Below are positions 1,471 to 10,915 of a DNA stretch of 64,000 nucleotides, one piece after another (the first letter of the stretch is position 1; every line of letters begins with the position of its first letter). Below the pieces are notes generated by a model, which was given only the letters and a program-made list of their open reading frames with translations, was not told the DNA's origin and did not search any database. The stretch spans positions 1-64,000 of the forward strand of contig JAURQH010000059.1 of the NCBI GenBank assembly GCA_030836185.1, read 5' to 3'. Made by a program: the position numbers and the translations under genes. The DNA comes from Planctomycetota bacterium (GTDB lineage: Bacteria; Planctomycetota; Planctomycetia; Planctomycetales; Planctomycetaceae).

Positions 1471-3858
1471 TTGAACACCCACAAAATCTGTCCAATACGG
1501 CGTTCCCTGGTTGCGCTGGCGATCATTTCTCTCAATCTTTCTGTGTCTCTACATGCGGCTCCTGACGAGAAACCGACATCCTGGACTCTTGGCCCCACCG
1601 GAATGCGAGGCTGGGCAAGATTCGAGAAAATGTCGACTGCGAAAGCCCGCGAGATTCAGATTAGCGAAGTGGAACATAACTCTCCCGCTGACGGCGTGTT
1701 AGAGGTCGGAGATATCATTTTAGGGGTGGGGAGATCGACATTCGATGGCGATGCGCGGATTCAGTTTGCAAAAGCAATTACTGAAGCAGAACGACGCGAG
1801 AATCGTGGCGAACTCATACTGCTGGTGAGACGGAAGGGGCGTAATGATCGCGTCACGCTCAATTTGCAAGTCATGGGGAGTTATCGTGAAACCGCTCCAT
1901 TTGATTGTCCCAAGTCGCGGAGGATTCTCGAACAGGGTTGGGACAGGCTGGCCAAGCAAATGAAGAGTGCTCCCACCGATGGCCACATTATCACACGAGC
2001 CATCAATGCGTTAGCTTTGTTGTCGAGTGGCGAGAAGAAATATCATCCGTTACTCCGCGAGCAGGCAAAGATTCTCTCAACGTACAATCAGTCTTCAGGC
2101 GTACGGACTTGGCAATACGCTTACGTCAATCTTTATCTGGCGGAATACACTCTCGCGACCGGCGACAAGAGTTTTCTCGAAGAGGGGCTCCAACGGATGA
2201 CGAAGCTGATCGTCGACGGACAAAGCGCAGTGGGTTCTTGGGGACATGCGTTTGCCGATCCCCGCACAGACCGACTCATTGGCTACGGTATGATGAATGC
2301 CCCCGGTATCCCTTTAACTTATTCGCTGGTTTTAGCTCGTGAAGCCGGTGTGACTGTTCCCGGTCTTGATGAAGCGATCAACAAAAGTGCGATGCTTCTT
2401 CGCTTTTATGTCGGCAAAGGAGCCATCCCGTACGGCGATCATGCTCCCTGGATTCAAACACACGATGATAATGGGAAGAACGGAATGGCGGCAGTATTGT
2501 TCGACTTTCTGGAAGAAGCAGAAGCGGTTGAATATTTCTCACGAATGTCGGTCGCCTCTCACGGCGAAGAACGTGAAATGGGACACACAGGAAATTTCTT
2601 CAATTTGACTTGGGCGCTGCCAGGTGTGGCTCGTTCTGGACCAGATGCAACGGGAGCCTGGTTAGAAGAGTATGGTTGGTACTTCGATTTGGCACGACGC
2701 TGGGACGGAACGTTCCACTACCAAGGTCCACCTCAAGGGAAACGAGAGGTCTATGATCAATGGGATTGCACCGGCGCTTATCTTCTCGGCTTCAGTCAGT
2801 TTTCTCAGAACACCTACATCACAGGTCGTAAACTTAGCACTGCCCCACAAATCAGTCGAACCACTGCCGAGCAACTCATTGATGATGGTCGAGGGTGGTC
2901 AAATCTCGACCGTAACAGTTTCTACGATAACCTGAGTACCGAGCAATTGTTCGAGCGTTTGTCGAATTGGTCCCCCGTCGTGCGAGAACGAGCGGCGTTG
3001 GCTCTTGAACGACGAAAACAGGAAGATTTCACCGACGATCTGATTGCCCTACTCAACTCAGCCGATCTTTCCGCTCGCTACGGTGCCTGTCAGGCATTTC
3101 AGCTCCAACGTGGTCGAGCCGCCAAAGCTGTTCCTACGTTGCTCAAGGCATTCCGATCGGACGATCTCTGGTTGAGAATTCTTGCGGCGGAAGCTCTTGC
3201 CTCCATGGGAAATCAGGCAAACTCAGCAATCCCTGTGATGTTGAAGCGGTTGACCCAAAAACCATCGCCCGAAGACCCTCGCAATATGGAACAGAGATAT
3301 TTATCTATTGCCCTCTTTAACAAACGAGGTGGTTTATTGGGGCATTCGCTGGAAGGTATTGATCGCGAGATGCTGCTTGATGCGGTCCGTGCGGGACTCA
3401 CAAATCAGGATGGTCGAGCACGAGGATCCCTTTCGAGCGTTTATAAAAACCTTTCCTATGAAGACATCTCGCCATTGCTTCCTGCCATCAAGCAAGCCGT
3501 TGTCGAACCCGCACCCAGCGGCATCATGTTCGCGGATGGAATTCAAATGGCAGGCCTGGAACTCTTTGCTCAAAACCGGATCGAAGACGGAATCGAACTT
3601 TTGGTGGACTATGCTCGCAATCAAAAGAAGCACGGCAGCCAAAAGCGGATTGTCGATGTGATGAAGTGGCTCAAACAATACGGCGCACATGCTCAACGTG
3701 TCATTCCGCAACTGGAATCGATGGCGATTTATTTCGAGACCGGCGAAGAAGACTTTCCCAAGAGGGTGAGCTTAGAGAAAGCAAAAGTCGTTCGCGAGAC
3801 CATCATGGAAATTGAGAGACTCAAAAACGAACCCGAGTTGATGAAGCTGAATCTTTGA
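1471..3858 (+). CDS. Secreted DUF6288-like protein with PDZ domain and HEAT repeats
   Basis: A 795-residue exported protein of unknown function. It starts at TTG; residues 1-30 form a signal peptide (hydrophobic core LVALAIISLNLSVSLHA). Residues about 40-135 look like a PDZ domain (EVGDIILGVGRSTFDGDARI). A long central region (about 165-480) of helical character resembles an alpha-toroid with Trp/Gly-rich turns. Residues about 490-620 carry HEAT-like repeats (SARYGACQAFQLQRGRAAKA, LRILAAEALASMG). This architecture matches what I recall as DUF6288, common in Planctomycetota and Verrucomicrobiota. PDZ and HEAT modules usually bind peptides or proteins, so a periplasmic scaffold is possible. It stands alone between ComM and a convergent PEP-CTERM gene. 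The TTG start is accepted because it places the signal peptide at the N-terminus. Confidence 0.8.
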   Translation: MNTHKICPIRRSLVALAIISLNLSVSLHAAPDEKPTSWTLGPTGMRGWARFEKMSTAKAREIQISEVEHNSPADGVLEVGDIILGVGRSTFDGDARIQFAKAITEAERRENRGELILLVRRKGRNDRVTLNLQVMGSYRETAPFDCPKSRRILEQGWDRLAKQMKSAPTDGHIITRAINALALLSSGEKKYHPLLREQAKILSTYNQSSGVRTWQYAYVNLYLAEYTLATGDKSFLEEGLQRMTKLIVDGQSAVGSWGHAFADPRTDRLIGYGMMNAPGIPLTYSLVLAREAGVTVPGLDEAINKSAMLLRFYVGKGAIPYGDHAPWIQTHDDNGKNGMAAVLFDFLEEAEAVEYFSRMSVASHGEEREMGHTGNFFNLTWALPGVARSGPDATGAWLEEYGWYFDLARRWDGTFHYQGPPQGKREVYDQWDCTGAYLLGFSQFSQNTYITGRKLSTAPQISRTTAEQLIDDGRGWSNLDRNSFYDNLSTEQLFERLSNWSPVVRERAALALERRKQEDFTDDLIALLNSADLSARYGACQAFQLQRGRAAKAVPTLLKAFRSDDLWLRILAAEALASMGNQANSAIPVMLKRLTQKPSPEDPRNMEQRYLSIALFNKRGGLLGHSLEGIDREMLLDAVRAGLTNQDGRARGSLSSVYKNLSYEDISPLLPAIKQAVVEPAPSGIMFADGIQMAGLELFAQNRIEDGIELLVDYARNQKKHGSQKRIVDVMKWLKQYGAHAQRVIPQLESMAIYFETGEEDFPKRVSLEKAKVVRETIMEIERLKNEPELMKLNL

Positions 3859-4046: not shown

Positions 4047-4763
4047 CTAATTCTGGACAGACCTCATCGCGCGGCGTCTCACGAGATATCCGGGAACGCA
4101 GCCAAGTAGGATCAAAACTGACGAAGGCTCAGGGATTGGTTCAACACCTGCATAAAAGTTATCAAACCCAAACCCCGGGCCTCCCGTTGCATCTCCTTGA
4201 TACGAGATTCGCATTCCTCCGATGTCGGTGAATCCACGAGAAAAACTGAATGGAGTGGCCAAGCCATCTCCTGTTCCCGGAGTCATTCGGTCGAGCATTT
4301 GTGAGTCGAGAACATTATTGTTGTTATCATAAATTTCAATCATCCACCGCTCCTCTGTGCCATCAGAGGGTCGGAATTCAATGTCGAATATTTCAGCAGA
4401 GACATAAGAAACTGGGTTGCTAAAACTGACGAGCAGATCCAGAGGGCGATTGTTTCGGATCGTGTCATCCACCAGGAAGAATGACCCATTCTGCTGACCG
4501 GGCAATAAAGAGTCATGGTAGATTGCACCCAGTCCACTGACGAAGCCAATGGTGGGGTCACCCACCTGCGCAATCACGGGGCGAGAGCCATCTGCCAATT
4601 GAAATTGGATTCCCTGTGTATTGAGAAATTGATTTTAGATCAATTGCCCCTGAGTCGGCGTTCCCATACCGGGGATTGTTTCAAAGTCGACAAATCCGGC
4701 TTGAACTACAGGCGAACAGATATTTGCGAACCATAGGATTTGAAGAGTGGTGAAAATACGCAT
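4047..4763 (-). pseudogene. PEP-CTERM exported protein gene interrupted by an in-frame TAA
   Basis: The natural start appears to be ATG at 4763, giving a signal peptide (MRIFTTLQILWFANICSPVV) followed by QAGFVDFETIPGMG. The same frame then reads a TAA at 4635-4637 (QGQLI-stop-NQFLNTQGIQF) and continues without shift as LADGSRPVIAQVGDPTIGF to a PEP-CTERM tail (PEPSSVLILLGCVPGYLVRRRAM). Family members I recall read 'ISNQF' or similar at this point, so the stop replaces one residue, most simply Ser TCA changed to TAA. Read through, it would be about 237 residues. The downstream part alone (TTG at 4598) would lack a signal peptide and could not be exported. Alternatives are a sequencing error or readthrough. 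It lies 54 bp downstream of another PEP-CTERM gene on the same strand. Confidence 0.8.
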
Positions 4764-4817: not shown

Positions 4818-5576
4818 TCAGAAGTTGCGTTTTTTGCGAGTGAATATCCCCATCAATGTGAGACTGATCAGACAGATCGAGCCGGGTTCAGGAACTGCCG
4901 TGATCCGAAAAGCACTGGAACGACTTGTGGGTGAATAGACCCAGTTGGAAACATCATTGAACTTTCGATAGTTTCCCGAAAAGGGAAATTGTGTGGAGAC
5001 CCATTGCCAAGCCGGGGCATTACGAGAGGAACCGGTATCGGGATCCACATCGGCTACTTCCAACCAATAATCTGATCCTGGTGTCAACTCGAAACCAGCC
5101 CCCGTGAGATAGACATCGTATTGATTCACCCAAAATCCATTTTCTCCCGCATTGATGACTGCTGTCGGAGCAACAGCCAATATTGTTTGCTGAGAAGCAA
5201 TCGCTCCGGGTGGTTCTGGACCAAAGCCATCGTATTCATAAATTGTCACTTGAAAGTCTAATGGAGCAGACACAACCGGTGACGCGAGTGTTGTACCGGT
5301 GAATCCCCCCCAGAAGGTCAGTGCAATATCTGCCAAACCCGAAACTTCACTGGCGGGTGCCCAGGCAAATCGATTTGCGACTCGTTGCTTTGAAATCGAG
5401 GATGTCGTGATATCGGATTGGACCATCTCATAGAGCGTGTCTTCTTGCGAAGCAGGAGGAGCATTATGGACGACCCAGTCCGCCCGCACAGGAGAATTTA
5501 CGCCAATATCGAATACCAACAAAACCAGGCAGGTCACGATTGGGAGAGGAGTTCTATTAATCATGGAATTTCTCAC
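4818..5576 (-). CDS. PEP-CTERM sorting domain protein
   Basis: A 252-residue exported protein with N-terminal signal peptide (PLPIVTCLVLLVFDIGV) and a C-terminal sorting tail: PEP motif in AVPEPGSICLISL, a short hydrophobic helix and the basic end TRKKRNF. PEP-CTERM tails are recognised by exosortase and anchor or release proteins outside the cell; no exosortase gene is in this window. The mature part is beta-rich with no recognised catalytic motif. The GTG at 5576 shares bases with the TGA of the upstream kinase gene (GTGA overlap), suggesting translational coupling; ATG 5564 is an alternative start. Co-expression with the kinase and sigma factor is therefore likely. Function unknown. Confidence 0.8.
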   Translation of the reverse strand: MRNSMINRTPLPIVTCLVLLVFDIGVNSPVRADWVVHNAPPASQEDTLYEMVQSDITTSSISKQRVANRFAWAPASEVSGLADIALTFWGGFTGTTLASPVVSAPLDFQVTIYEYDGFGPEPPGAIASQQTILAVAPTAVINAGENGFWVNQYDVYLTGAGFELTPGSDYWLEVADVDPDTGSSRNAPAWQWVSTQFPFSGNYRKFNDVSNWVYSPTSRSSAFRITAVPEPGSICLISLTLMGIFTRKKRNF

Positions 5577-7972
5577 TGTTGATCGAAATGTTCCGCGTGC
5601 TGAAGTAAATCCTGTATTCGAATGACAATGAGATTGTCTCGGCTTCCGTGCTCAGAACTGAATTGCGCAACAATGTTCTCCCCATTGGGACTGATCCAGA
5701 GCAAACGTGATAAGCGCGCATCGTCTCCCCAGAGTTCATCCGTAAGCAGTTCGTTGAAATACCAGGTCTTTTGTTGTCGGCGTGAGTAGATCCAGCCTCC
5801 CCGTTTTCCCTCACCAATAATTGTGAGAGCATCGTTGGACATCGATACCGGTGATCCCTCCACGCCGAAAAAGTAATCCAAAGTGATTCCTTCAGGGTGA
5901 AGACTGGCGGTAAACCCTCCTCGCTCAGGATGAACACCAAGAACTCTCCGACCATCATTATTGATTTCGAGAAACTCGACATTGGGATCGAGCAGCAGAT
6001 CGGTGGCGATCTCGATGCGTTCTCCGGGATAGCGAAGACACCAAGGTCGTTTGACGAGTATGCCATTTAAATCTACCTCGACATTCCCGACCACGATTTG
6101 CCCATCGTGACTCTGATCACGCCAAACAAGCGAACGTGCTTGGGGAACCGGAGGAACGGAAGTCACTAGCTCCCCATCGCTTCGTTGAAAGCAAACCACC
6201 AGTTCTTTCGGAACTGCTTTCGGTTTACCAATGAATAAATTGAGATCAGATGTTAATTTTGCCGGGATGAACGATTCGCAATTGGGGACGAAAGTATCCG
6301 CCTCTTCTCCCAAACGATCTCGTATCACATAACAATGATTCAGGTATGACTTTCCGATGAGCAGATAGCGACCGTTCGGAGAGATATCGAGATAGCCCGC
6401 TTGGGTAGGGGTGTATGTAGAGTCCAGAATGCTCGTAACCTCATCGGGATGATCGTTTGGCGACCAAGTAAATCTGTACGAAGCTCCGGGTACGCGCCCT
6501 TCCACGCGCCCGATTACTACGACTTCATCGATGCCTCCAAATCGCATCGGTAGAATCTTTTCTCCCGGTTCCGCCGTCATTAAAACCGAGGCCCAATTTT
6601 CGACTTTTTCTGGAGTAAAGGAGGGCGTCAGAGCCTGAAGTTGTAACGAGTCAGGAACTGATGAATTGAATTGAGGCGATATTGCGAAAAAATACGTTCC
6701 GAGAACAGCCAGTAAGAGAATCACCGAAAGACTGATTCGTCGAAGAGTAGAGCGACGCCGCAATCTGATTGGATGTAACGTCTTGAAATCTATCGAGGGA
6801 CTTGATTCCAGAGACAACGAACCGAGACGTCCAAGATCAGCACCCCGAGAGTAAGAATCTAACTTTCCTGATAGTTCCTTGAACGATCCTAACCTCCCAT
6901 CAGGATCCCTATGAAGAAGCTGCTCAATTAACAGGATCAGATCTTTGGGAAGGCTATCGCGACTCTCAGAAGGTATATTAAGAAGCTGTGGGGTGTCTGT
7001 TTGTGTTCCGTGGAGTGGGTGAAATCGATGCCCGTGACGAAAGGGAGTTTCTCCAACCAGCAACTTATAAAACGTGACACCCAAGCTGTAGATATCGGCG
7101 CGATGATCGACAGTTCCCGAATCCAGCGCCTGCTCGGGTGCCATGTAATCGAGCGTCCCCATCACTTGACCGGTCCGGGTGAGTTCCTCCTCCAACTCAC
7201 CCGCGATATGGGCTAAGCCCATATCCATGATCTTAACTTCACCATCACGAGTCAGCATAATGTTTGACGGCTTGATATCCCGATGAATCAGTCCTTGATC
7301 ATGGATGTATTGCAGGGCTATTGCTGCTTGACGAATCATTTCACAGGCATCGGCCACGGCCAATGTGCCAGATTGTTTCAACAGCGTCGAAAGATTCACA
7401 CCGTGAACCAACTCCATCGCCAGGAAATGCACCTCACCCGCCTCACTCGCATCGAGTGCCTTTACAATACCAGGATGATTTAACTTTCCGACCGCACGCA
7501 TCTCTCGCTCGAAACGGGCAATCGACTTCGGATTCCGCATTCGCCAGGAAGGCAAGACCTTTAGCGCTACCTCTTGATTGAGCTTCTGGTGGCGGGCGCG
7601 ATAAACCGTTCCCATTCCCCCTTGTCCGATCGACTCTAGCAATTCATAGGCACCAATCATCTGACCGGGCGTAAACTCGCTTACGTACGGCTGCCGATCA
7701 GTTCGTTCTGTCAGCGCTTGATCGAGTGACACTAAAGCAATTCCGCGCACGGCTCGTTCGCATTCGGGTTCTCGTATGATTTCCAAGCCGCGACTCGGTT
7801 CGCCTTCCTGCAAAATACGAACATACCCATCCAACTCATCCATCAAATGATGAATCGTGGGCATCTGCCGACTACTGTCGAGACCGCGTTTGCGGAGTTC
7901 GTCCAGCTCAGAGAGGCCTTCGATAAGTTGGTCGTTTTCAGGAGGCATAAATTCGGGTTCGTCTTGATTCAT
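5573..7972 (-). CDS. Transmembrane Ser/Thr protein kinase with repeat-rich extracytoplasmic domain
   Basis: A Hanks-type kinase of about 799 residues from ATG 7972 (an in-frame GTG at 7993 would add seven). Numbered from the GTG, the kinase domain runs about 116-380: glycine loop GQGGMGTV, Lys145 in VALKVL, HRDIKPSN (Asp239), metal-binding motif DMG at 257 instead of DFG, and YMAPEQ. One membrane helix follows (about 419-438, SLSVILLLAVLGTYFFAI). The outer 370 residues contain repeated short units (SPNGRYLLIG, SHDGQIVVG, NNDGRRVLG, SNDALTIIG, SPNGENIVAQ) resembling HAF-type or beta-propeller repeats. An extracytoplasmic sensor is inferred. The PEP-CTERM gene overlaps its stop codon and an ECF sigma gene lies 224 bp upstream on the same strand. 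Sigma factor plus kinase pairing is common in planctomycetes. Confidence 0.9.
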   Translation of the reverse strand: MNQDEPEFMPPENDQLIEGLSELDELRKRGLDSSRQMPTIHHLMDELDGYVRILQEGEPSRGLEIIREPECERAVRGIALVSLDQALTERTDRQPYVSEFTPGQMIGAYELLESIGQGGMGTVYRARHQKLNQEVALKVLPSWRMRNPKSIARFEREMRAVGKLNHPGIVKALDASEAGEVHFLAMELVHGVNLSTLLKQSGTLAVADACEMIRQAAIALQYIHDQGLIHRDIKPSNIMLTRDGEVKIMDMGLAHIAGELEEELTRTGQVMGTLDYMAPEQALDSGTVDHRADIYSLGVTFYKLLVGETPFRHGHRFHPLHGTQTDTPQLLNIPSESRDSLPKDLILLIEQLLHRDPDGRLGSFKELSGKLDSYSRGADLGRLGSLSLESSPSIDFKTLHPIRLRRRSTLRRISLSVILLLAVLGTYFFAISPQFNSSVPDSLQLQALTPSFTPEKVENWASVLMTAEPGEKILPMRFGGIDEVVVIGRVEGRVPGASYRFTWSPNDHPDEVTSILDSTYTPTQAGYLDISPNGRYLLIGKSYLNHCYVIRDRLGEEADTFVPNCESFIPAKLTSDLNLFIGKPKAVPKELVVCFQRSDGELVTSVPPVPQARSLVWRDQSHDGQIVVGNVEVDLNGILVKRPWCLRYPGERIEIATDLLLDPNVEFLEINNDGRRVLGVHPERGGFTASLHPEGITLDYFFGVEGSPVSMSNDALTIIGEGKRGGWIYSRRQQKTWYFNELLTDELWGDDARLSRLLWISPNGENIVAQFSSEHGSRDNLIVIRIQDLLQHAEHFDQQ

Positions 7973-8196
7973 GATCGTTCCCAAAGCAAACACACGTCTG
8001 CTCTTGGAAAGAGAGGGAATGTTTAATTCCAGTCACTCTCACCAAGAACGAAACAGCGTTGGTCGAAAATTGGAAATGGGGCAACATTTCGTCACAAGCA
8101 GGACGAATCAGAGTTCTCAGAAGGAAAACTCACAAGAGGGATAACACTGCACCGCAGGAGCGACAAGAATTAGACAAACCACATGAGCTTAAAGAC

Positions 8197-8781
8197 TTAC
8201 AGCCTTTCGAGTTCTTCTTTCAATCGTTTGAGAACGCGAAACTTGGCGTGTCTCACAGAAGATTCTGTAATTCCGAGAGATACTGCAATAGATGCCGCCG
8301 ACTCGTTCTCAATGGCCATTCGCCAGAATGCGGACCAGGTACTCTCCTGAAAATCGTCCCGAATCATTTCCAAAGCACGATGTACCAACAATTGCTCACT
8401 CTCATCTGCTTGATGAAGCTGTGAGGACGAATCTTTCAATGGGTCGGGGAGCTGATCGAAGAGAAGTTGAGCATCACTTCCACCTCGCGCTTCGGGCAGA
8501 TGTGCTTCCTTTCGCCAACGATCACGAAACACATTTTTGGTCACAATCAACAGCCAACCCCGAAAGTTACCAGAGCTGTAACCATCAATTCGTTTCCATA
8601 AAGTATGGAAGACATCCTGAGCCAAATCAGAGGCATCATCAGGATTGAGGCCGAATTGTCGTCCCCAGTAATAAACCAGAGGTCCGTAGAGATTGGCAAA
8701 TCGTTTCCACGCAATGGGATCCTGCAATTGAACCCGTTCGATCAGAGCCGATGACGTGGATAATGTGTCTTGAACTGTCAT
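8197..8781 (-). CDS. ECF-type RNA polymerase sigma factor
   Basis: A 194-residue sigma-70 family protein with only regions 2 and 4. Region 2 covers about residues 22-95 (DDASDLAQDVFHTLWKRID, FRGWLLIVTKNVFRDRWRK), where the core-binding and -10-recognition helices lie. Region 4 covers about 135-190, with a helix-turn-helix SAASIAVSLGITESSVRHAK. It directs RNA polymerase to a specific promoter set. No anti-sigma factor is adjacent; the next gene downstream on the same strand is the transmembrane kinase, which probably supplies the signal. An 11-bp inverted repeat lies 56 bp upstream of the start codon. Class assignment within the planctomycete ECF groups would need a profile search. Confidence 0.92.
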   Translation of the reverse strand: MTVQDTLSTSSALIERVQLQDPIAWKRFANLYGPLVYYWGRQFGLNPDDASDLAQDVFHTLWKRIDGYSSGNFRGWLLIVTKNVFRDRWRKEAHLPEARGGSDAQLLFDQLPDPLKDSSSQLHQADESEQLLVHRALEMIRDDFQESTWSAFWRMAIENESAASIAVSLGITESSVRHAKFRVLKRLKEELERL

Positions 8782-8836
8782 CGATAATCCTCAGACCGAG
8801 TATTCTATCACTTCCTGAAACATACCTGCTTAGATA

Positions 8837-8871
8837 ACCCGTCACAACATTGAATTCTTATTGTGGCGGGT
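8837..8871 (-). promoter_or_regulatory. Inverted repeat upstream of the sigma-factor gene (candidate operator or hairpin)
   Basis: On the plus strand ACCCGTCACAA (8837-8847) and TTGTGGCGGGT (8861-8871) are inverted copies with one mismatch, separated by 13 bases. On the gene's strand the proximal arm reads TTGTGACGGGT and lies 56 bases before the sigma ATG. The spacing would suit a dimeric regulator, or the proximal arm could be part of the sigma factor's own promoter. Seen directly; the function is inference. Confidence 0.45.
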
Positions 8872-8936
8872 CTCATCAATCATAAGGTTTCAATCGCCTG
8901 AAAGACTGAGGGCCAACAAATCGCTCATCCGCGCAT

Positions 8937-8969
8937 AAAAAAACAGGGGCCGGCATAATGCCGACCCCC
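8937..8969 (-). terminator. Rho-independent terminator of the DUF11 gene
   Basis: On the minus strand GGGGTCGGCA and TGCCGGCCCC (8946-8969) form a GC-rich stem with a tiny loop and one mismatch, followed by TG and a run of seven T. It sits 36 bases after the stop codon of the DUF11-repeat gene, as expected for an intrinsic terminator. Confidence 0.88.
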
Positions 8970-9004
8970 ATTCTCTCGGGTCTGATTGTCGAACGACCTT
9001 ACGA

Positions 9005-10915
9005 TCATTCGCCGTAGTACTTGGTCATTTCCTCAAAGATCAGCGGCTCTTGAATCGAGTCACTGGTGAGGCGGGCTCGGAACCGGTGATTTCCGGCGGT
9101 CGAGCCTTTGACCTGAATCTGATAAGTCACTTCCTGATTCGGTTTCAAGTTCTGAACCGAGCGGAAGAAGACGATTCCTTTTTCCACCACATGATCCGAT
9201 GGACCTTTGGCAGAAACAAATTTCACACCTTCTGGCAGTTCAAATGCAACACCGACATTCCCGGCTGCAATCGATCCACCGTTCTTGACACGAATCTCAT
9301 AAGCGTTATCAGCACCGACTTCGACAGGATCGTCGAGGTCAACAATTTCGAGTGACAGTGCAGCCGTTCCTTCAACTCGTGTATCGAGTTCAGTAATCGC
9401 CTGTGCTCCCTGTTCGGAAACTACGGCCACTTCGTGAGTGAAGTTTCCGAAGTTGACGGCAGCCAATTCGATAGAAATTTCCTGCTTCTCACCCGGTTTC
9501 ATTTCACCGAGGAACCAGTCAATGACGCGAGACTTGCTGTCGTACTTCCCGTTGTTACCCGCTTTGACAAATTCAAAGCCGTTCGGAAGTCGGTGACGAA
9601 GACGTACATTTTCAGAGACTGCCGTACCGTCATTTTCAACGTGCAAGGTGTAAACCCCTTGACGACCTTTGTATCGCAGTCCCGGCCCATCAAGTTTCAA
9701 CGCCAAGCTTGGAGCCGCCACCATCAGGTTGACAGTTTCCTGTTTTCTCAAGCTGTTAGAGGATTCTGCGGCGAGTTTGATTTTTTGATCGCCACCTTCG
9801 ATGGCAGCCAGAGCCAATCGCACTTCGCGAACTTCACCTTCTTCGAGCGATCCAATTTCCAGCAGAAGTCGTTCACCGCGTGGGTGTTTGAGTCCTTGAG
9901 GAATCAGAGCTTCGAGCGAAACATCGCGAGCAGTACCCGTCCCCACGTTCGTGATTTTAATCACATGAGCAACCGGCTCACCAATCAGTACTTTTTCCGG
10001 CCCCTCAACGGTGACGCCGATAATGGGTTCTGCCACCACAAATTTACCAGCAGTTTGTCCTGTGAACCGAACTTTTGTCGAGAGTTCGATTTCACCGCGA
10101 CGGCTGGGGATCAATTTGACAGAAAGTTTCTGTTGAGCACCCGGATCGAGTGAGCTCAGTTTCCAGGTCACACGATCATCTGCAGAGTTTGGTTTCGGAC
10201 GAGCCGCAGTGAGTCGGACTGTCTGAGGGAAGAATGCATCGACTTCAATCTCTTCCACTGTGACATCGCCGTTGTTTTTGACGACCAAGTCAAACGCACA
10301 TTCCTCACCCACCATGATCTCCCCTTGCGGCTTCCATTCGACGGAAACATTGGGGTTTTGGGCAGTTGCCTGTGGAGTGGCTAAGGGATTTTGTGACGCA
10401 AGATCCAATTTTTCAATTGTCTGAGTCGCTTTGATCTGAATGATGTTTTCATCCCTCTTGGCTCCCTTACGAGAGTAAGCGGCGTGTATCACGTTTCCGC
10501 CCGAAGGATTGGCAACATCATCTTTCTTCTCAACTTCGTGAACAGCCGGCTTGGCGTCCAGTTCGTGAGAAGCTTGAATGATGAGGCTTTTTTGCGGCTG
10601 AGCAAACACACTTTTCACTTCTGATGACCGCGTAAATTTCTCAACGGGTGGACCAGGTGTGTGATTTTTCTCCGCTGTTTTCTTTTCCACAGTAGGAGTC
10701 GGAGCCACCGATTTCTCAGAGACCTCTTCGACTTTCGTGCGATTCCCCGGAGCCAATGGATGATCGGCAGGGATCTTTTCTGATCCCTCGGAAGACTCAA
10801 GTGCCGCTTTTCTCAATCGTTCATAAGTTGAACTGGCAGGTTGAGCCGTCAGTATTGAGGTGGAAACACACAACGCGGTTCCCGTCACCAAAATTTTTTT
10901 CCAGCAGATCATCAT
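9005..10915 (-). CDS. Exported DUF11/CARDB repeat protein
   Basis: A 636-residue protein beginning MMICWKKILVTGTALCVSTS, a signal peptide ending near LTAQPA. Residues about 35-185 are a low-complexity, charged linker. From about 190 to the end come four immunoglobulin-like units of about 105 residues each, each starting with a phrase such as 'vGEecaFDLVVKNNGDV' and containing 'ARDVSLEALIPQGLKH' type strands: DUF11 repeats, typical of large planctomycete envelope proteins. The start is fixed by a strong ribosome site, GGAAGGAG five bases before ATG 10915. It is monocistronic with its own terminator. Role: probably cell-surface or periplasmic structure or adhesion (inference). Confidence 0.85.
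   Translation of the reverse strand: MMICWKKILVTGTALCVSTSILTAQPASSTYERLRKAALESSEGSEKIPADHPLAPGNRTKVEEVSEKSVAPTPTVEKKTAEKNHTPGPPVEKFTRSSEVKSVFAQPQKSLIIQASHELDAKPAVHEVEKKDDVANPSGGNVIHAAYSRKGAKRDENIIQIKATQTIEKLDLASQNPLATPQATAQNPNVSVEWKPQGEIMVGEECAFDLVVKNNGDVTVEEIEVDAFFPQTVRLTAARPKPNSADDRVTWKLSSLDPGAQQKLSVKLIPSRRGEIELSTKVRFTGQTAGKFVVAEPIIGVTVEGPEKVLIGEPVAHVIKITNVGTGTARDVSLEALIPQGLKHPRGERLLLEIGSLEEGEVREVRLALAAIEGGDQKIKLAAESSNSLRKQETVNLMVAAPSLALKLDGPGLRYKGRQGVYTLHVENDGTAVSENVRLRHRLPNGFEFVKAGNNGKYDSKSRVIDWFLGEMKPGEKQEISIELAAVNFGNFTHEVAVVSEQGAQAITELDTRVEGTAALSLEIVDLDDPVEVGADNAYEIRVKNGGSIAAGNVGVAFELPEGVKFVSAKGPSDHVVEKGIVFFRSVQNLKPNQEVTYQIQVKGSTAGNHRFRARLTSDSIQEPLIFEEMTKYYGE

Follow-up and report, generated by a model that had tools for sequence, protein, structure and literature searches.

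A planctomycete ECF sigma factor-kinase gene pair followed by PEP-CTERM genes: a rare local arrangement with a related second set in the genome

Do adjacent genes for an extracytoplasmic function (ECF) sigma factor, a transmembrane Ser/Thr kinase and a PEP-CTERM protein form one functional unit in a planctomycete, or does the last of them stand there by history? The question is raised by the first 64,000 nucleotides of contig JAURQH010000059.1 (the window; contig C35 of genome G000, which comprises 5.16 Mb in 107 contigs and is 97.94% complete). A preliminary description had placed three minus-strand genes here and proposed that they are a coupled signalling-export module. The genes were confirmed by their frames and by Pfam and NCBIfam matches: an ECF sigma factor of 194 residues (8197..8781), a Hanks-type kinase of 806 residues as listed (5573..7993) and a PEP-CTERM protein of 252 residues, pep1 (4818..5576). 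The proposed coupling held in part. A sigma-kinase pair with a PEP-CTERM gene is present and a related second set lies on contig C79 of the same genome, but the arrangement is not general. Tentatively, we read the locus as a genus-level operon in which a sigma-kinase pair is joined by the genes of its own surface-protein outputs, with a C79 copy whose RsgI-like sensor is related to its output, in a lineage with gene decay.

The second set and its shared domain

The window kinase has two close paralogues in G000, on contigs C43 (50% identity) and C79 (56%), over the matched parts. The C79 set comprises, in one direction, a sigma factor gene, a gene for a 641-residue kinase and three PEP-CTERM genes, with all frames open and with gaps of 19 bases between the kinase and C79 pep1, 40 between pep1 and pep2 and 36 between pep2 and pep3. 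The sigma factors of the window and C79 are 39% identical, and the kinases are 56% identical over residues 90-435. Among the C79 PEP-CTERM proteins, the best match of the window pep1 was C79 pep2 (phmmer E 9e-19, Z=1000). On C43, a sigma factor gene and a kinase gene are present, and the contig ends about 200 bases after the kinase. Directly after this kinase (L032, 1-201), what looks by eye like a transposase end, presumably of the IS5 type, is encoded on the opposite strand and would explain why the contig stops there.

The outer domain of the C79 kinase matched C79 pep3, the closest of its operon's proteins, at E 7e-15 (phmmer, Z=1000). In the reverse comparison, C79 pep3 found this outer domain at E 4e-15 among 136 kinase outer parts; the PEP-CTERM tail was trimmed here, indicating that the match does not rest on the tail. 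A profile of the four PEP-CTERM proteins alone also found the C79 outer domain (E 1.7e-9). The sharing of a domain between this kinase and the PEP-CTERM proteins of its operon argues for a real link between the two. A domain profile that included the C79 kinase (A3) matched 41 times across 30 of 397 genomes. In the loci covering 39 of the 41 matches (all except one each in G410 and G390), the C79 kinase was the only kinase seen to carry the domain. C79 pep3 scored above the Pfam cut-off for DUF7901 (PF25470; 25.0 bits versus 24). C79 pep3 has relatives in the window pep1 and the C79 kinase sensor, although these two and the other two C79 PEP-CTERM proteins did not match the DUF7901 model; the body of the window pep1 is related to DUF7901-like PEP-CTERM proteins.

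The placement of PEP-CTERM genes behind kinases in G000 exceeds chance. PF07589 gave 10 matches at E up to 1, 8 of them above the cut-off, and 4 of these 8 lie directly behind two kinases, those of the window and C79. The other four are a match on C56 in a 52-residue frame, which may not be a gene, and matches on C92, C74 and C49 without a sigma-kinase pair in the stretches read. With 31 PF00069 matches in the genome and an assumed 4500 genes, the chance of at least 2 of 6 or 7 PEP-CTERM loci lying directly behind a kinase is about 0.001, and that of one further locus doing so, given the window, is 0.03-0.04; these are rough values that treat loci as independent, which paralogous operons are not. 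The C49 match stands at the end of a 435-residue frame (L039, 5702-7009) that over residues 32-198 matches FtsH in its N-terminal part, an odd combination.

Neighbourhoods in relatives and turnover within the genus

The neighbourhoods of related sigma factor genes were surveyed in two sets. The first comprised the 60 best listed matches, not counting the window, C79, C43 and the orthologues of the window and C43 in the sister species G002. The second, which may overlap with the first, comprised 52 loci, two of them from G002, one titled Verrucomicrobiales and the rest mostly from planctomycetes. Adjacency was scored within 800 bp and not by the next open reading frame, because spurious frames can fall between genes; PEP-CTERM frames were identified by a motif rule of our own. 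A kinase gene lay within 800 bp of the sigma factor gene in 48 of 60 and 47 of 52 loci, respectively; in 30 of the 48 first-set pairs it followed the sigma factor gene in the same orientation. A PEP-CTERM frame was detected within 800 bp of the pair in 2/48 and 1/47 cases; the kinase lay less than 800 bp from the locus end in 13 of the 48, so that a following gene could be missed, and 8 of the 47 were cut short. The first-set positives were L143, with the PEP-CTERM frame 97 bases after the kinase, and L174, with the frame divergent from the sigma factor gene, and the second-set positive was L302, with two PEP-CTERM frames divergent from the sigma factor gene. Three further loci came close: in L161 the PEP-CTERM frame stood about 1.05 kb downstream of a kinase-sigma pair, and in L168 and L308 it stood 2.7 kb and 2.3 kb past the kinase, respectively.

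The control started from the PEP-CTERM side. There were 112 matches, 104 of them outside G000. Four frames of fewer than 100 residues, four matches below the cut-off and G002:C231:13710 were left out, and 40 were drawn at random, from 15 genomes, out of the 95 pooled. None of the 40 had a kinase within 800 bp and two had one within 2 kb. None had a sigma factor gene within 800 bp by a profile that was built from this subgroup and may miss distant ECF sigma factors. At least one of the 55 undrawn matches (G005:C1:3290190, in L174) adjoins a known sigma-kinase pair. Rare adjacency was what the preliminary description itself had named as speaking against a module, and this is largely what was found (2/48, 1/47 and 0/40); a general coupling of sigma-kinase pairs with PEP-CTERM genes is rejected. 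The arrangement is a rare local variant and not a widespread system.

Further cases came from searches started with the PEP-CTERM domain, which by their selection give no rate. A sigma-kinase-PEP-CTERM order in one direction was found in G100 (L079), from another family of the class, and the same order with one frame before the PEP-CTERM gene in G084 (L080). In G052 (L073), the PEP-CTERM gene is divergent from the kinase, and in G169 (L218, L202), a related protein with a PEP-CTERM-like tail is divergent from a sigma-kinase pair.

G002, which is 97% complete, was used for the comparison of orthologues. Its sigma factor gene is open, and the protein is 90% identical to that of the window. The homology stops inside the kinase gene, at window position 7242, and no intact kinase is present there. 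The G002 orthologue of C43 loses homology at about the same kinase position. Both orthologous kinases, of C35 and C43, lose homology near the HRD motif (L031, 2906, and L034, 6778), and other genes follow. In the window, the preliminary description of a second, broken PEP-CTERM gene downstream was correct: pep2 (4047..4763, minus strand, reading from 4763 to 4047 and 54 bases after pep1) contains exactly one in-frame TAA, at codon 43. Its motif is below the cut-offs of Pfam (11.6 bits versus 20.7) and NCBIfam (12.3 versus 16). A DUF7901-like gene on contig C7 of G000 (L217, about 8914-9565) is broken by two stops; the syntenic G002 frame (C71; L216, 7781-8524) is open but has no PEP-CTERM tail. 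The stops in pep2 and in the C7 gene and the loss of the G002 kinase indicate turnover of these genes within the genus, and the break in pep2 together with the lost kinase indicates that the sigma-kinase-PEP-CTERM set is not strictly kept.

These results bear on a serious, if doubtful, alternative, in which the PEP-CTERM genes are passengers that came to lie behind the kinases by history, with one duplication, loss of the exosortase, ongoing decay and no functional coupling. The broken pep2, the two stops in the C7 relative of an open G002 frame, the end of G002 homology inside the kinase gene and the rarity of the adjacency elsewhere are all consistent with it, as is the failure to find an exosortase in G000 or G002 (see below). 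The C79 set fits it poorly, being fully open, with three tandem PEP-CTERM genes whose products share a domain family with the kinase sensor, and in the window the kinase and pep1 frames are both uninterrupted.

PEP-CTERM features and the exosortase question

The motif of pep1 (4830..4898, minus strand) matched PF07589 with 22.9 bits (cut-off, 20.7), and an N-terminal hydrophobic, signal-peptide-like stretch was found; a C-terminal PEP motif, hydrophobic stretch, basic tail and signal peptide were all counted as present. The GTG of pep1 does overlap the kinase TGA by 4 bases, as described previously, but a signal-peptide-like stretch can also be read from an ATG 12 bases into the frame. The overlap is therefore only one of two possible pep1 starts, the other leaving a gap of 8 bases.

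The preliminary description had called pep1 an exosortase substrate. No exosortase was found in G000 by PF09721 (searched in this genome only), TIGR02602 or TIGR04178, nor in G002 by TIGR02602 or TIGR04178. The single TIGR04178 match in G000 (14.4 bits, on C45) was rejected as an exosortase, since it lies in a frame that resembles a PAP2 phosphatase. By TIGR02602, 14 of the 21 relatives searched contain an exosortase; the congener G001 was positive at 145 bits, whereas G000 and G002 were negative. At E up to 0.01, PEP-CTERM matches numbered 8 in G000, 4 in G001 and 4 in G002. The other five exosortase-negative genomes had none, and the 14 positive genomes had 1 to 18. Within this sample, G000 and G002 alone combine PEP-CTERM matches with a negative exosortase result. 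At E up to 1e-10, the 20 kb around the G001 exosortase matched the DNA of G000 or G002 only over 88 bases at its end. With no exosortase found, the term exosortase substrate is unsupported, and any function of the PEP-CTERM segment of pep1 would be that of a simple membrane anchor.

An ordinary exosortase system, in which the enzyme fell into an assembly gap or belongs to a type that the models do not recognise and pep1 undergoes normal processing, is unlikely; it would be compatible with the other readings. An assembly of this contig number and completeness leaves some room for it, the PEP-CTERM motifs are above the cut-off, and every exosortase-positive genome of the sample has PEP-CTERM matches. 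The joint negative result in two nearly complete genomes, beside a strong match in their congener, and the lack of the G001 exosortase region in both argue against it.

Signalling by the kinase and sigma factor

The kinase catalytic domain (6887..7648, minus strand) matched PF00069 at E 2.5e-55 over residues 116-369, with the motifs ALKVL, HRDIKPSN and DMG present. By hydropathy, a single membrane helix spans residues 419-437 (6683..6739). An ATG 21 bases inside the listed frame (MNQDEPEF) is likelier to be the true start, and the G002 frame agrees from there. The outer domain, of about 369 residues (5576..6682), had been described as repeat-rich, but a search for direct DNA repeats of at least 15 bases found none. 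It had no Pfam, NCBIfam or PDB sequence match at E up to 10, and no strong relative in the 396 other genomes of the class; across all 397, the matches besides itself were three at E 0.004-0.007. A single-sequence structure model of the domain consisted mostly of beta strands, which proves nothing at a mean pLDDT (predicted local distance difference test) of 42. With that of the pep1 body at 43.6, the models were too poor for a fold search. Relatedness to the C43 kinase outer domain was rejected (phmmer E about 1), as was homology to PEP-CTERM proteins, to which no significant match was obtained.

The sigma factor matched Sigma70_r2 of Pfam at E 4.8e-14 and the NCBIfam sigma70-ECF model with 56.9 bits (cut-off, 42.9). 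Its sigma-2.2 motif is DASD (D49-A50-S51-D52), compared with the canonical DAED, in that Glu is replaced by Ser. The Glu is missing in 63 of 66 aligned sigma factors, the third position being Ala in 39, Ser in 7 and Glu in 3. Among the 60 loci, L149 had no sigma factor frame. L079 and L080 score far below the rest and L074 has a canonical-looking AAED, and for these reasons the three probably belong to other groups. Judged from the alignment, loss of the Glu is general among these sigma factors and Ser at the third position is not. A further sigma factor of the same kind with DASD is present in both species, on C16 of G002 (L126) and C70 of G000 (L127), without a kinase within 800 bp in either.

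Between the sigma factor and kinase genes, a block of 56 bases (8100..8155, minus strand) is identical in the window and G002, within an aligned stretch that is 81% identical overall, and contains a short inverted repeat by eye. Its core was seen only at these two loci among 339 compared, and it is a possible regulatory element. The longest identical run between the two genomes, of 74 bases, lies in the kinase coding part (7890-7817). Promoter- and terminator-like sites found by scanning the locus were not more numerous than in shuffled sequence. Directly upstream of the sigma factor gene, a long GC-rich palindrome (about 8937-8969, by eye) is followed by a T run on the minus strand; it is kept in G002 and, while absent from the list of the terminator scan, looks like the terminator of the preceding gene. 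Next upstream, at 9005-10915, is a gene for a protein of repeated DUF11/CARDB domains, which adjoins the sigma factor gene in G002 too. On the other side of the set, 1471-3858 encodes a DUF6288 protein with PDZ and HEAT repeats.

That sigma-kinase pairing was already known is borne out by the literature on kinase-paired ECF systems, as far as its available text goes. In ECF43, as in the window, the sigma factor gene stands beside a transmembrane Ser/Thr kinase gene and the Glu of DAED is replaced (EcfP/PknT and EcfK/PknS). Phosphorylation by the neighbouring kinase is reported at the third sigma-2.2 position, in STTA of EcfP and QATE of EcfK (PMC8999054, PMC13147305). ECF43 differs in that the window sigma factor keeps Asp49 and Asp52. 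A review lists Ser at this site in ECF59 and the old ECF60 (PMC8103513). The sigma-kinase groups ECF59, ECF61, ECF62 and ECF217 have planctomycete examples, and the host of the window is likewise a planctomycete. The available text on kinase-paired systems does not mention PEP-CTERM genes in the operon, which are present in the window.

On the reading of the locus as a sigma-kinase operon with its own outputs, the kinase would read something outside the inner membrane and phosphorylate the sigma factor, as EcfP/PknT and EcfK/PknS of ECF43 suggest. The candidate phosphosite is Ser51, the third position of DASD, the same motif position that is phosphorylated in EcfP and EcfK. The sigma factor so charged may bind RNA polymerase and raise expression of its own operon, and by the gene order the exported PEP-CTERM protein would be the output. 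On C79, the kinase sensor appears to be a diverged relative of one exported protein, and the sensor and the outputs would then recognise a common target outside the cell, in parallel to SigI/RsgI of cellulose degraders; this sensor idea rests on the C79 operon and the RsgI parallel. The PEP-CTERM segment of pep1 would serve as a plain membrane anchor, if active at all. The window copy appears partly decayed, with pep2 broken and G002 without an intact kinase here.

Besides the rarity of the arrangement in the two surveyed sets and in the random draw, several observations weigh against this reading. The comparison of 119 PEP-CTERM frames with the 136 kinase outer parts gave three matches at E<=0.01, all to the C79 kinase; no general tendency of these kinases to take up exported domains was seen, and the window outer domain is not of the C79 type. 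The two sets in one genome may stem from one duplication. The third sigma-2.2 position is Ala in most of the aligned sigma factors, that of C79 included, indicating that Ser51 is not a conserved phosphosite, and the charged Asp residues of the motif are retained in the window sigma factor. In EcfK, the T51A variant is reported to stay functional, with a larger role for a Thr in the linker (PMC13147305). The ECF-type promoter pattern AAC-N14-18-CGT was absent upstream of the sigma factor, kinase and pep genes of C35 and of the C79 sigma factor and kinase genes; its one instance is upstream of the C43 sigma factor gene. The C-terminal stretch of pep1 is below the helix threshold used in the hydropathy analysis.

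Likeness to known systems and meaning

In SigI/RsgI, a biomass-sensing system of Clostridium thermocellum, the outer domain of the membrane sensor resembles an exported protein that the sigma factor may control; the C79 kinase and its PEP-CTERM proteins are comparable. RsgI6 and Xyn10D are 57% identical, and RsgI outer domains are reported that bind polysaccharides and resemble a regulated enzyme (PMC4711584). RsgI is an anti-sigma factor and not a kinase, and its ligands and targets are known. A sensor homologous to exported proteins of the operon was found only in the C79 kinase and is absent in the window kinase. That the operon is a kinase-based counterpart of RsgI is an improbable version of events; in it, the kinase would have gained its sensor by copying the exported PEP-CTERM protein of the same operon and, with the exosortase lost, the PEP-CTERM segment would simply hold that protein in the membrane beside the kinase. 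Least likely, and doubtful by a wide measure, is that the exported protein acts on the kinase as a ligand, co-receptor or decoy for the outer domain and gives feedback: the domain common to the C79 sensor and its operon's PEP-CTERM proteins and the near-overlap of the kinase and pep1 genes, which could balance protein amounts, would suit it, but the window outer domain is an orphan and has no sequence relation to pep1.

For the genus-level operon with its own surface-protein outputs, PrsK/PrsR/PrsT of Proteobacteria is a second parallel, likewise a membrane kinase and a transcription switch tied to PEP-CTERM genes. It differs in being a histidine kinase and a response regulator with sigma-54, compared with a PF00069 kinase and an ECF sigma factor in the window, and its targets have a shared upstream motif and as a rule lie close to exopolysaccharide genes, in genomes that encode EpsH (PMC1569441, PMC9850573). 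As far as the open-licence literature searched goes, PEP-CTERM genes in a sigma-kinase operon and the shared sensor domain are undescribed, but they are rare.

To our knowledge, it is not known what planctomycete sigma-kinase pairs respond to, although such kinases are numerous in these genomes (31 PF00069 matches in G000). The relation of a kinase sensor to a protein exported from the same operon suggests a specific candidate ligand, namely whatever that protein binds. The genus also departs from the usual pairing of PEP-CTERM proteins with an exosortase, which makes it testable what becomes of such proteins when the enzyme is lacking. If the RsgI-like reading is true, the cell would measure the target of its surface protein with the same domain that it exports.

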